This document shows, piece by piece, positions 2,281-7,343 of a stretch of DNA of 14,378 nt. Every line of letters begins with the position of its first letter. Position 1 is the stretch's first letter. The notes under the pieces were generated by a model. It searched no databases, was not told where the DNA came from, and worked only from the letters and a program-made list of their open reading frames with translations. This DNA is from Synergistales bacterium (GTDB taxonomy: Bacteria; Synergistota; Synergistia; Synergistales; 79-D21), in contig JADLKH010000005.1 in NCBI GenBank assembly GCA_015657435.1, positions 396,395 through 410,772 on the forward strand, in the 5' to 3' direction. Position numbers and translations under genes: made by a program.

Positions 2281-3195
2281 TCATCCCCCTATCCGGGACA
2301 TATGCTGGGAGGAAGCCGCTGCATCCTTCCAGCACTTCGGTTTCCTCTCCGCTTCCGCAAGGATCAGATCGCGAACGGTTTCGAGGTCCCCCCGACGAAG
2401 GGGTTCCCTCAGGGAGATCCCGTCGGCGCTGAACAGACAGCTCCGCAATTCCCCCGAAGCGGTGATTCTCAATCGGTTGCAGGTTTCGCAAAAGTGATGG
2501 CTGACCGCCGCGATAATCCCGAGCCGCTGTCCGTTTTCCGAATGGACAAGGGTACGGGCCGGCCCCTCCGGAACTCCATGATTGGGGTCCCTTTTGCCGC
2601 ATATCTCCGGGATCCATTTATCACCGTCAGGCAGTCCCTTCACGATTTCGTCCGCCGAGATGAACCGGTCCCGGGTCCAAACGGAGTCATCCAGGGGCAT
2701 GAACTCGATCAGCCTGAGGACTGCATCGCAGGATCGCGCGAATCCGAGAAGGGCCGGGATCTCCCCTTCATTGACCCCTCTCATCAGGACCGTGTTGATC
2801 TTGATCGGGATTCGTGATCGGGACCGGAAGGCAACGATCCCCTGCAGTACTTCCTCCAGGGAACCGAGCCGGGTCAATGCCCGGAACTTTTCGGGGTCCA
2901 TCGAATCCAGGCTGATGTTAAGGCCGCAAAGCGGGATCTTCGACAGCTCTTCAGCGCATGGCAGCAGGAAGGACCCATTTGTCGTCAGGGCTACATGAAG
3001 CGTTGGGATTTCTCCGACGAGACGCTTGAGGAAATCGGTCAATCCCTTCCTGACCATGGGCTCGCCTCCTGTGAGACGAACCTTTCTGACCCCCATCCCG
3101 TGAAGGAGCCGGCAAAGGAGCAGAATTTCCTCGTACCGCAGAATCTCATCGTGCCCAAGCCAATTGATCCCATCCTCAGGCATGCATATCGTCAC
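2281..3195 (-). CDS. moaA: GTP 3',8-cyclase MoaA, intact from residue ~25 on; 5' end corrupted in this sequence
   Basis: MoaA is the radical SAM enzyme that rearranges GTP in the first step of molybdenum-cofactor synthesis. The clean frame starts with a GTG at 3195 that is unlikely to be the real start. It encodes VTICMPEDGI, so only the last cysteine of the N-terminal radical-SAM cluster motif (CX3CX2C) is kept. The rest is normal: GGEP at 43-46, the C-terminal cluster motif CETC with a third cysteine 13 residues later (C236, C239, C253), and the family's C-terminal GG. Upstream, 3187-3250 still resembles an N-terminus of the type RHIDYLR..TDRCSYRCTYCMP, but broken by small indels, and is preceded by a good ribosome site at 3257-3265. 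The true start is probably near 3248. As written, the product would lack the SAM cluster. Confidence 0.9.
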   Translation of the reverse strand: MTICMPEDGINWLGHDEILRYEEILLLCRLLHGMGVRKVRLTGGEPMVRKGLTDFLKRLVGEIPTLHVALTTNGSFLLPCAEELSKIPLCGLNISLDSMDPEKFRALTRLGSLEEVLQGIVAFRSRSRIPIKINTVLMRGVNEGEIPALLGFARSCDAVLRLIEFMPLDDSVWTRDRFISADEIVKGLPDGDKWIPEICGKRDPNHGVPEGPARTLVHSENGQRLGIIAAVSHHFCETCNRLRITASGELRSCLFSADGISLREPLRRGDLETVRDLILAEAERKPKCWKDAAASSQHMSRIGG

Positions 3196-3256
3196 AGCCG
3201 GTGTATAGCTACAGTCAGTTAATAGATATGCCTTTTAATATTCAGAGCTGTGTGGT

Positions 3257-3265
3257 CCTCCTTCC
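3257..3265 (-). promoter_or_regulatory. moaA: Probable ribosome binding site of moaA
   Basis: On the minus strand this reads GGAAGGAGG, a near-perfect Shine-Dalgarno sequence. It lies some 60 bases upstream of the GTG that opens the clean moaA frame, about where the true start of a full-length MoaA should be. No start codon stands at the right distance; the bases after it read ACCACACAGC. I infer that the start codon was lost to the sequence damage in this block. Confidence 0.5.
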
Positions 3266-4790
3266 CGATACCTCGGCCATCGATCCGTCCCATGCGCTTC
3301 GACACACTCTCTCTCCGTAGTCTGATAAACGCATTGCCGATTGACACATGTTACACAGGATGGCTTCAGTGTGGTTTCTCGGCCGGCTCAAAATGGGTTC
3401 CCAGGGTGTCCCCTCTTGTCACAGTCAGAGCGTCTAGGCGTTTCCGTCGCTTGGCTCTATCCAGACTGGTCCACCGAAACCCCCGAGGGCGACGGGACTC
3501 GCTCTCCGTCGTGAATGTGAGTCATACGCGGTGTCCTCCGCGACCTCGACTCGGTCTACCAAATCCGCCTCCTGAGAGAACCAGTAAAAAGAAACACCGT
3601 AATGTCTTGCACACCGGCTGACATCTTATACTCGGATCTCTCCTCCACGACAATAAGTGTGTGACAACTCGGAGATATCCTTCGGGCTCCCTCTCGACAC
3701 AAATAGACACGTGTTATTCAGCGTAAAGATTCGTTTCTCACATCCATATATATTTCATTATTAGCAAGTTCCGCCTCAGCTGTCTTAGAGAAAGTCGTGT
3801 ACCGACGTTTTGCCACCAAGACAGTGGCATGGCGGTTGTGCAACCGCAGGGCACGACGCTCTGCGAGGCCACCCTTATCCACCGCTCTCGGATGGCTTGA
3901 TGATCGCGTGCGCGCGTGTGACGGGAGATCGTTCTATATAATGCGTAAATGGCGCCTAGCGTAGAAGACGTCAATCTAGAGGCAGGACTGCTTAGGAAAA
4001 CGACTTACTAATATAGTTCAGAGCCATACCTATACATACCCAATGCGAGAGCTATGGTTGCACGAAGCCCTACGTGAAGGCCGGTCTTCGTCCTAAGCCT
4101 TCGGAAAAGACTCTCGTGCAGGCGAATTCGCCGTTGTGAATACCAGACATTCAGCTTCTTCGCGGACATAATTCGACCGTTTCGGAGACAGGTGTACGTA
4201 ACCGTCCGCCTCATGCACTCGCCCCATCGTTCGCACGCGCGAAACGAGAGAGACCCGAAAACCTTTCCTGCCGCCTATTTTTCGGCCGCCCTTACCTTCA
4301 GCACTCCTCTACCCGGAGGAGACGAGTGCGGGAGCATCATTTCACATTCCTGCCTCCCGTGAAACGCCAAGAGCACCTCGGATCATCGATTCACGGGTCG
4401 CAAGCGAAAGAACCCCTGACATGGCAAGCACTGCGGGAAAAACCCCAAACTCCAGTACCGCCACCGCTGTCGACATCGTGGAAACCCGTGAATCCCGAAG
4501 AAAGTCCACTCTTTCCCACTTGGCCTCCGCATCATTGCGGTCCCGCTCTCCGCCTAAAAGGATCTCTCCCTCCGAGGCGATGACCTCCGCGTGTGGTCAC
4601 GCTTCCCTTTTGCCGTCCAGCGCCGATCAGCACGAGATCATGGGTTCCGCCGCGTTCGGAGAGCTCTTCCACTGACTAATGGCATCATGAATCTCCGCGC
4701 ACATGTACCTGAACATTCCTCTCCGATGTCGCCGAATTCCCTTCCAGAAACCTTGCCCGACTCCGCCTTCCGAGTTTTCGATCCACTCAT
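3260..4790 (-). pseudogene. moeA: Frameshifted remainder of the MoeA-PBP fusion gene (MoeA domain III/IV plus PBP-like domain)
   Basis: This continues the open 4791-5342 frame, through many frameshifts and stops. MoeA features can be picked out in sequence: the molybdopterin-binding part (THDLVLIGAG, KGS, VIASEGEIL, a GIxGFP turn followed by STAVAVLEF) and the C-terminal beta domain (EADGYVH at 4212-4192). Next come traces of the substrate-binding-protein domain found in some MoeA fusions: LFVSRGSPKDI (about 3706-3674), a sequence at 3640-3580 that realigns to EIRYINRQRGAGTR, one at 3526-3440 like YTHIAVAAAVASG, and an ending like EALGGYD near 3300-3265. The whole gene would encode about 630-690 residues. 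Both ends of this interval are approximate. The breakage is probably sequence error, but true decay is not excluded. Confidence 0.65.
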
Positions 4791-5342
4791 TCATCGGACA
4801 AATCTCGTCCCGGTCGGTGATGAAAAGACTTTCGGCCTCGAAAGCGGGATCATCCCCACCCCTGCCCCCAGCAGGAGAGCCAAAAGAGGCGGATCAACGC
4901 TTTCCCCCCGGCGCGCCAGAATCTGGCCCCGCATGACATCCTCGCCAACGGGGCGGACGTTCGAACCCGGAGGCAGGGCTTTGGAAAGGATCAAATCGCC
5001 ATCCTCAGCCGTCGATGTGTCCTCCACCATGGCGACCGCGTCGCTCCAATCCGGAAGAGGACCCCCGGTGTTGACCCATAGGAAATGGTCCCGGGCGAGG
5101 CGGACGACCGTCGCGGTGGTGGCACGGCTTGTTTCGGCCGCCACGACGGCATACCCGTCGACGGCGGACGCGACATAATGCGGCACGTTCCGGTTCGAAA
5201 GGACATCATCCGCCAGGATAAGTCCCTGTCCTCTTTCGGTGGGAATGGCTTCGGCCCGCGGATGCCCAAGTCCCATGGCCGCTGCCAGGATCATTTCCCT
5301 GGCTTCATCAAGGCTGACGTGTTCCCTGCAAGGTTTTACCAT
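4791..5342 (-). CDS. moeA: MoeA-type molybdopterin molybdotransferase (PBP-fusion class), N-terminal part only
   Basis: This is the readable first 183 residues of a second MoeA, which inserts molybdate or tungstate into adenylated molybdopterin. Visible motifs are HYVASAVDGYAV at 55-66, NTGGPLPDWSDAVAMVED at 91-108 and VRPVGEDV at 129-136. The last is characteristic of MoeA proteins that carry a C-terminal periplasmic-binding-protein-like domain. The frame derails exactly where RP(K)V..IPTGDE is expected, giving PKVFSSPTGTRFVR and a stop; a one-base shift restores DEICPMNEWIEN. The truncation therefore marks the edge of the corrupted block rather than a natural C-terminus. The ATG overlaps the end of the upstream moeA by seven bases and has a GGAGG ribosome site, so the two are translationally coupled. 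Confidence 0.85.
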   Translation of the reverse strand: MVKPCREHVSLDEAREMILAAAMGLGHPRAEAIPTERGQGLILADDVLSNRNVPHYVASAVDGYAVVAAETSRATTATVVRLARDHFLWVNTGGPLPDWSDAVAMVEDTSTAEDGDLILSKALPPGSNVRPVGEDVMRGQILARRGESVDPPLLALLLGAGVGMIPLSRPKVFSSPTGTRFVR

Positions 5343-6565
5343 TCCAAAACCTCCACGGTTTCTCCCTTCCTTCGCGTTTCCTCGTTTTCCGTGAGCCGGA
5401 TAAGCCCTTTCGCATCCCTCAGGACCGAGACATACCCCGATTTCCCCGGCATGGGCAGGACTTCACCATTCAGGTCAACAGCAGGAATGAACTCTTCCAC
5501 TCCCGCCTTTCCGAAGACGTCCGAAGCCAAGCGAGCTTGGACAGTCCTGAACGGAAGGGCTTCGATGCCTGCCAGGCGGTAAAGCAGCGGCAGCAGCACC
5601 GTGATTGCGACGATGGAACAGGACAAGGGATGCCCCGGCAGCCCCATGACCAGACGCCTGTCCGGCAGGCAGCCGGCCATGAGAAGGGGTTTCCCGGGGC
5701 TCATGTTGACGCCCCTCACGAGAAGGCCTGGTGAAGGAAGGTTTTCCATGATTTCGGAACAGAAATCCCTGACGCTGACCGAAGACCCTCCACTCAAAAT
5801 CAGGATATCGGCCTCCTCCAGATTTTTCATGACGGATTCAGCGAGGCTCTCCCTGCAATCCGGCACGATTTCCAGGCGCCTGGAGGGAAAACCGTGGCGA
5901 GAAAGCAGGAATTCGAGAAACCAGGCGTTCGCGTCCCTGATCTTCCCAGGCGGGAGCTCCGGCGTCTCAGCGGGAACGATTTCGTCACCGGTCGAAAGGA
6001 TTCCGATCTTCAGGTCAAGGAGTTCAACAGAGCAGATCCCCAATGTTGCCAGGATTCCTACGTTCCGGTAATCCAGCAATTCGCCCGCGCCTAAAATTTT
6101 TTCTCCCCTGACGATTTCCTCCCCGCGGAAAACCAGGTTCTCCCCCGACTGGAGAGCCTTCCTGACTTCCACCCAGTTCCCCGCCTTTACGGTATCTTCG
6201 ACCATAACGACGGCATCGGCCCCCTCCGGGATCATCCCTCCGGTATGGACCAACAGGCACTCCCCTTCCCCGATCGCAGCCTCGGACCACACCCCCATCG
6301 GTATTTCTCCCCTGACCCGGAGGAAAACGGGAAGGGCGTCCGAGGCCCCTGCCGAATCCCCGGACCGGAGCGCATATCCGTCCCGAGTACTGCGGGAAAA
6401 GGGCGGATAATCGAGGGGGGAAAGCCGGTTTTTGCCGCTGCGCTTCCCAAGGGATTCATCCAGGTGTGCAAAACGGCTTTTCAAGGGCCAGGGAAAATCG
6501 AGAGCACTCGAAACATATTCGATTGCGTCTTTTCGCAGCATCAGTTCTTTTGCAAAACCTGACAT
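5336..6565 (-). CDS. moeA: Molybdopterin molybdotransferase MoeA (plain form)
   Basis: The 409-residue protein has the full MoeA layout and length. STRDGYA lies at 59-65, TGGMIPEGADAVVMVED at 108-124, STGDE at 191-195, SGGSSVSVRD at 258-267, SPGKP at 289-293 and GLPGHPLS at 308-315, followed by the C-terminal beta domain. MoeA catalyses metal insertion into adenylated molybdopterin in the cytoplasm. The family's usual SGGVSVG is here SGGSSVS, a mild divergence in the molybdopterin-binding region. The frame stays open to 6868, but the ATG at 6565 is the likely start: homology begins there (KDAIEYVSSAL) and GGTGGAG lies at the right distance. The region above belongs to the SPOR gene. The second moeA overlaps its end by seven bases. 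Confidence 0.94.
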   Translation of the reverse strand: MSGFAKELMLRKDAIEYVSSALDFPWPLKSRFAHLDESLGKRSGKNRLSPLDYPPFSRSTRDGYALRSGDSAGASDALPVFLRVRGEIPMGVWSEAAIGEGECLLVHTGGMIPEGADAVVMVEDTVKAGNWVEVRKALQSGENLVFRGEEIVRGEKILGAGELLDYRNVGILATLGICSVELLDLKIGILSTGDEIVPAETPELPPGKIRDANAWFLEFLLSRHGFPSRRLEIVPDCRESLAESVMKNLEEADILILSGGSSVSVRDFCSEIMENLPSPGLLVRGVNMSPGKPLLMAGCLPDRRLVMGLPGHPLSCSIVAITVLLPLLYRLAGIEALPFRTVQARLASDVFGKAGVEEFIPAVDLNGEVLPMPGKSGYVSVLRDAKGLIRLTENEETRRKGETVEVLEW

Positions 6566-6590
6566 GCGGGGATCTCCACCCTTTTCGATC

Positions 6591-7343
6591 TTAGGGCAGC
6601 CTGACAACAAGGACAGGATACCCTTTTTCGCTGAGCGTCTTCGCCAACTTATCCGCCGCAACCCTCTCGGTGCCTGCCAGGACAAGAACCTTGGACAGCG
6701 TTGCCTCACCGGACTTCGCCTCGACCAGTTTTGCGGGAAATCCTTCCTGCTTGAGCTTCCTGAGGAGGTTTTCGGCGTTGACTCGATCCTTGAAGGCCCC
6801 AACCTGGACATTCCAGGTTTCTTTCCCGAGCTGTTCCGGCGCAGTCTTGGGCTGGGGCGGCGGTGCAACGGTTTTCTGGGTCTGGCTTCCGCCTCCCGGT
6901 GCCGTAACGGGAGGCACGGTCGGTTTCGCAGCGATGGGCTTCGCTACAGGCTTCGCCTGAACGACCTTCGTGTTCTTGGCGGATTCCGGTTTCGTCTGGG
7001 CGCTTCCTTCCGGAACAGCCACTACAGACTCTCCCCCGCCGATTTCTACCGCGTCGGAGCTTGTCTCGTCAACCGAGCCCGTCTCCGTACTTTGTGTCTG
7101 CTCCAAAACGGGAGGGAGGCTCTCTCCATTGGGCGACGGGAAGAAAAACAGACGGATGCCGAACACAAGGGTGCCTACGGCCACCAGACCGACGATTGGA
7201 AGCATGAATTGACCGAAGCCAAACGTCGCCTTCCGGGACCGACTCCTGCGGCTTCTTCTCGAGGGAAGCCTCTTTTGCGGTCTCGGATGACCCGCAGAGG
7301 TGTCTTCTTCCATTTCTTCCCATTCGTCGGGTTCAGATCGCAT
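6591..7343 (-). CDS. Single-pass membrane protein with C-terminal SPOR domain
   Basis: The 250-residue protein has a short acidic start, a basic stretch (KRLPSRRSRRSRSRK, 24-38), one transmembrane segment at about 46-68, then a long low-complexity linker rich in proline, alanine, lysine and threonine with KP repeats. It ends in a SPOR domain at about 175-250 (ETWNVQVGAFKDRVNAENLL ... LVVRLP). SPOR domains bind glycan strands lacking stem peptides, which accumulate at the division septum, so the protein is probably anchored in the inner membrane with the SPOR domain outside. That fits its place just after ftsQAZ; FtsN and DedD have the same architecture, but equivalence is not shown. The ATG at 7343 has a GGGGGAGA ribosome site and overlaps the upstream radical SAM gene by 11 bases. 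The open frame above 7343 is a shadow of that gene. Confidence 0.88.
   Translation of the reverse strand: MRSEPDEWEEMEEDTSAGHPRPQKRLPSRRSRRSRSRKATFGFGQFMLPIVGLVAVGTLVFGIRLFFFPSPNGESLPPVLEQTQSTETGSVDETSSDAVEIGGGESVVAVPEGSAQTKPESAKNTKVVQAKPVAKPIAAKPTVPPVTAPGGGSQTQKTVAPPPQPKTAPEQLGKETWNVQVGAFKDRVNAENLLRKLKQEGFPAKLVEAKSGEATLSKVLVLAGTERVAADKLAKTLSEKGYPVLVVRLP

Follow-up and report, generated by a model that had tools for sequence, protein, structure and literature searches.

Between the readable part of a MoeA-PBP fusion gene and that of moaA in a Synergistales bacterium lies a stretch that looks noncoding, and the locus raises the question of whether the two genes decayed in this lineage or whether the DNA was wrongly written. 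The window, which is the whole stretch of DNA that was analyzed (14,378 nucleotides, positions 396,395-410,772 of contig C5), comes from an assembly of 6 contigs and 2.68 Mb with a completeness of 85.58% and a contamination of 3.68%; the genus belongs to Synergistaceae. On the minus strand, a Pfam search gave the order murC, murB, a gene at the ftsQ place, ftsA, ftsZ, a radical SAM gene, a SPOR gene, moeA, moeA-PBP, moaA, moaC, a MoCF-domain gene and rapZ. The gene at the ftsQ position had no Pfam match, and no RNA gene reached the gathering score in an Rfam scan of the window. The order from moeA to rapZ was conserved in all four same-genus genomes (L021-L024). In the genome studied here, moeA-PBP and moaA were each found as a single copy.

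The damaged block occupies approximately 3187-4842 on the minus strand (1.66 kb) and takes the place of the last three quarters of MoeA-PBP and the first 29 codons of moaA (Table 1). As a preliminary description of this DNA had recognized, two genes are cut: MoeA-PBP, which starts at 5342, is legible for ~166 residues, and moaA can be read from ~3186 to 2281. The upper edge had been placed at 4825; however, the first residue that differs from an intact homolog (P0123) is 167, which moves this edge to ~4842. Inside the block, the missing parts of both genes are collinear and in order, broken up by frameshifts. For example, FFGIHGFP ends at 4479 (minus strand) and STAVAVLEF starts at 4473, exactly as previously placed. 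The sequence CGGCTGTGACGATATGCATG was also present at minus 3181-3200 as claimed, but the motif near 3195, which had been reconstructed as RCTYCM, reads RCRYCM in intact MoaA. Among the domains of the fusion protein (PF03453, PF00994 and PF12727), MoeA_N is in the readable part of the window's gene and the other two are illegible there, whereas the MoeA N-terminal, MoCF and PBP-like domains of P0123 all scored above cut-off. Similarly, Radical SAM and Mob_synth_C were above cut-off in the window's MoaA, but the Radical SAM match begins only at profile position 19 because the start of moaA is scrambled; in an intact MoaA (P0001) the two matches begin at profile positions 1 and 2.

Table 1. Features of the damaged locus and further damaged stretches in the same assembly (window coordinates unless a contig is named)
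Feature	Position	Strand	Evidence
moeA, intact, upstream of the damaged gene; control flank	5336..6868	-	Pfam MoeA_N, MoCF_biosynth and MoeA_C above cut-off
MoeA-PBP fusion gene, legible 5' part (residues 1 to ~166)	4843..5342	-	160/160 identical to P0123
Noisy part A: MoeA-PBP columns ~500-1300	4070..4842	-	pair-HMM against P0123/P0001 codon profile; tiles collinear
Central junk: ~196 nt without detectable homology replacing ~60 columns	3873..4069	-	tile alignment; HMM
Noisy part B: 3' end of MoeA-PBP plus moaA codons 1-29	3187..3872	-	pair-HMM; tiles
Readable remainder of moaA, intact residues 30-330; control flank	2281..3186	-	301/301 identical to P0001
Further scrambled block that interrupts a threonine dehydratase gene	C6 ~117,840-120,150 (L034:17840-20000, L067:1-1150)		homology traced; far edge from ORF reading
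Raw-looking junk at contig start	C2 1 to ~3,300 (L091:1-3300)		composition alone

Intact copies of both proteins were detected in a protein collection by searches that each scored just ~8,000 candidates sharing most words with the query. A search with the window's MoaA returned P0001 (330 aa, listed as from a Synergistales bacterium), and one with the MoeA-PBP of a relative returned P0123 (641 aa, compared over residues 1-160). Both are complete; the window copies are the same outside the block, without a single amino acid difference in 461 flanking residues, and illegible in the block. The entries for P0123 and P0001 both give 97,142 bases as the length of the longest contig, and the two may therefore share one contig. 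Judging from these sequences, intact identical genes exist on other contigs, whose source assemblies are possibly not independent of the one studied here. In each of the four same-genus relatives, both genes are intact, MoeA-PBP has 642 aa and its end is overlapped by moaA. In these genomes, 2003 nt without an internal gap separate the start of MoeA-PBP from the position that corresponds to residue 4 of the window's MoaA ORF; in the window, this interval is 2156 nt. The block has a net excess of 153 to 156 nt, nearly all of it from the central piece, where the HMM placed ~132 extra nt in columns 1300-1400. Against the relatives' DNA, columns outside the block showed no insertion and one deletion, at the lower edge.

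To what extent the block still resembles the two genes was analyzed with pair-HMMs. Alignment to the P0123/P0001 codon profile, an approach proposed in the preliminary description, gave a log-odds of 695 nats; in a rerun with coarser bins the value was 658 nats, and all 10 shuffles scored 206-221. When the profile was built instead from the DNA of the four relatives, the block reached 297-298 nats, and all 20 shuffles, each permuted within 100-nt pieces and fitted with equal settings, gave 31-57. Finer bins and more rounds yielded 343.6 and 337.0 nats from two starts (six of six shuffles at 38-49); thus, the equal-settings refit lowered the block from 337-344 to 297-298 nats and left the conclusion unaffected. 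Simulated genes scored 1148-1168 nats when error-free (two of two), 553-616 with 15-16% error (four of four), 400-424 with 25%, 314-336 with 35% and 173-203 with 50% (two of two each). The block, at 298 nats, falls between the simulations with 35% and 50% error and therefore behaves like a gene with slightly more than 35% error.

We also divided the region into 17 tiles of 150 nt that overlap and, at the two ends, extend into the flanks; each tile was compared with four shuffles. Sixteen tiles scored above the best of their own shuffles and 15 mapped collinearly, which agrees with the earlier view that the missing parts can be followed in order through shifting frames. Tile 3980-3831 was marginal (16.4 versus 16.2 for its best shuffle) and out of order, and tile 4080-3931 was below the best of its four shuffles. 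Thus, ~196 nt (4069 to 3873) are without recognizable content where ~60 columns would be expected. The worst part had been located centrally, and junk without homology is indeed found there, but in a narrower interval than the 3720-4140 given before. The possibility that the center is displaced genomic DNA was considered and rejected, as 3700-4140 matches only itself in the assembly. Two overlapping noisy halves, with the same columns read twice, were also rejected: central tiles do not match neighboring columns above shuffles, the exception being again tile 3980-3831, whose marginal match is far out of order.

When fitted to P0123/P0001, columns 500-2000 contained 0.149 insertion events, 0.120 deletions and 0.079 substitutions per column. 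The flanking columns 400-500 had no insertions, 0.011 deletions (about one, at the edge) and 0.003 substitutions, and columns 2000-2100 had no insertions, no deletions and 0.002 substitutions. This corresponds to ~35 errors per 100 columns in the block, ~27 of them indels, and to about one or none in the flanks; the flanks had been described as free of such damage, and this agrees. Indels outnumber substitutions in the block by at least ~3 to 1 (0.269 versus 0.079 per column) and make up 77-81% of the fitted events, a share that depends on the fit and is firm mainly in part A. Shuffled sequence fitted in the same way is also indel-rich (~0.25 insertions, 0.25 deletions and 0.27 substitutions per column), and the indel share is therefore best trusted in the well-aligned part A. 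This part had 0.064 insertion events, 0.113 deletions and 0.035 substitutions per column, and certain 50-column pieces in it carried just 1-3 events, the cleaner sequence being at ~4319-4473 and 4567-4663. In part B, the error level was flat, with 0.146 insertion events, 0.148 deletions and 0.090 substitutions per column. Deletions thus exceed insertions in part A and roughly equal them in part B. The damage had been called largely insertion-type, which is correct for the net length but not outside the center, where deletions are as common as insertions.

Two further analyses of the confident columns contributed little. The homopolymer analysis was left with 2 insertions and 1 deletion because columns adjacent to indels are not confident, and it is therefore uninformative on the platform. 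Mismatch frequencies at the three codon positions were 0.10, 0.09 and 0.46; this pattern was rejected as proof of coding constraint, as simulated error-laden genes gave the same and shuffles, in their few confident columns, mostly lean alike.

The assembly was surveyed with a codon-usage score in 53 stretches of 20 kb, which together cover 1.06 of its 2.68 Mb (40%). In this sampled 40%, two further damaged stretches were found, at unrelated places (Table 1), and the block in the window was the third longest among the 40 low-scoring runs listed. The block on C6 interrupts a threonine dehydratase gene for which an intact protein is available (P0241, 327 aa, 98% over the whole query). With the C6 copy shifted by one residue, 99 of 99 and 161 of 162 residues agreed with P0241 (260 of 261 compared); an ungapped comparison gave just 173 of 261 because of an additional residue in the C6 copy, at an NN pair. 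The N-terminus of the enzyme (a profile of 63 residues) was traceable in the scrambled part, with a score of 72.1 versus a maximum of 17.0 in 20 shuffles. Without the clean in-frame codons, the score was 56.6 (maximum of 20 shuffles, 18.0), and with more of the near sequence omitted it was 50.0 versus a shuffle maximum of 16.2. Several N directly precede the edge of this block. At its start, C2 is C-rich over one stretch (57-66% C) and 88% A over another of 200 nt; a permease gene that appears clean by eye follows. None of the 40 listed runs fell within the first 4 kb of C1, C4, C5 or C6.

Some other low-scoring stretches proved to be ordinary: the longest (L050) is an rRNA operon, and L027 and L047 contain RNase P RNA and tRNAs, respectively. 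The second longest run (L093) has long open frames in AT-richer DNA; it was set aside, together with L084, L086 and L087, after a look at the frames of all four and at the letters of L084 and L086. A weak Rfam match to SECIS_4 (L065:6301-6338, 40.3 bits with a cut-off of 38) may mark a selenocysteine signal or may have arisen by chance.

The assembly is dotted with N, single or double, 419 of them in 1.06 Mb (e.g., L035:437-824 and L036:10298-10946), and the stretches taken from relatives (L021-L024 and L039-L042) have none. The window is exactly an N-free stretch, with one N a base before its start and another just past its end (L026, 394 and 14773). In the first 680 kb sampled, 143 single N were located in ORFs of at least 300 aa, some of which may be on the wrong strand, and occupied codon position 3 in 79 cases, position 1 in 59 and position 2 in 5; 48 further single N were outside such ORFs. 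The pattern is as if polymorphic sites had been masked.

That the written sequence of the block is wrong is close to certain. The intact copies are identical outside the damage, and therefore the fault lies with the assembly and not with biology. Real decay of moeA-PBP and of the 5' end of moaA in this lineage, for which one could cite that the frames are truly broken as written and that the genome yielded no second copy of either gene, is very improbable. No amino acid has changed on either side while ~35 changes per 100 columns are found inside, and therefore decay cannot have accumulated in between; in addition, it would have had to start and stop at two points within two genes. In decay, substitutions would dominate and divergence would not be confined, whereas here indels account for ~77% of the events in the fit (subject to the dependence on the fit described above), the reverse of the balance seen in bacterial mutation. 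Indels are quoted as 1.8-11.9% of bacterial mutations in PMC8717266, which cites Sung et al. 2016; the indel-rich exception described there, Acidobacterium capsulatum, had 31 indels versus 88 substitutions, and an indel rate of about one fifth of the substitution rate is given for Vibrio in PMC5854121. The suggestion in the preliminary description of sequence error instead of decay is thus borne out by the intact identical copies, the indel-rich errors and the damage elsewhere in the assembly. Even less credible is genuine hypermutation confined to this locus, or its programmed scrambling, in living cells, and a real subpopulation with a locally hyper-indelled stretch that destroys the molybdenum cofactor pathway appears just as far-fetched. 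Confined damage with clean flanks would suit hypermutation, and the upper edge carries one copy (4841-4863) of a weak 23-nt direct repeat (78%), whose other copy is at 2928-2950, although such two-copy repeats often occur by chance. However, apart from this repeat and one 18-nt inverted repeat (78%), no repeats were found in 2900-5100, the other damaged stretches are at sites with no relation to this locus, including a contig start, and identical intact copies exist, as judged by a protein search that would miss broken copies.

It is also unlikely, though less so, that two low-quality read tails (e.g., Sanger or 454 finishing reads) meet in the middle of the block and that no long read was involved. 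Such tails would account for central junk flanked by recognizable sequence on both sides and for the different error mix of the two halves. However, there is no smooth gradient, as cleaner pieces of part A are located between bad ones and part B is flat, and in our judgment the kilobases of odd-composition junk at the start of C2 look more like failed single-molecule reads than like Sanger tails.

Very probably, the deposited assembly contains uncorrected sequence at the block; its most likely source is one or two raw single-molecule long reads placed across a gap. Indel-rich errors between sharp edges, the central junk and the other damaged stretches argue for this assembly error, and we infer a long-read platform from the type of error and the raw-read look of the C2 start. 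The error type is consistent with the indel-rich error described in PMC7006217 for single-molecule long reads. Some observations argue against a raw long-read patch: the estimated error of ~35% or more is high, the same source citing claimed errors of recent reads of <1% for SMRT and <5% for nanopore, and no N occurs in the block although N are scattered across the rest of the assembly. The uneven error, with cleaner 50-column pieces in part A and none in part B, fits two reads or a weak consensus equally well. A gap between well-resolved contigs may have been bridged by a noisy long read during scaffolding or gap filling and never polished. Underneath the block there would be an unremarkable MoeA-PBP gene, followed by the first part of an equally unremarkable moaA.

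The block is not a real feature. False pseudogenes that arise when sequencing errors place frameshifts and stops in true genes, and that comparison with intact relatives reveals, are described for Kastor (PMC12007338). The genes of the window resemble the artifacts of long-read or hybrid assemblies reported there in being falsely broken and exposed by intact relatives; however, the errors given for Kastor amount to <0.05% of the genome, whereas here ~35% error is confined to a 1.66-kb patch. Patches of this kind may depress the completeness score of the assembly (85.58%). Pathway losses deduced from it need to be checked against intact copies elsewhere, and a gap patch can imitate gene loss: this genome could be scored as lacking MoaA and MoeA-PBP, and hence as being without the molybdenum cofactor.
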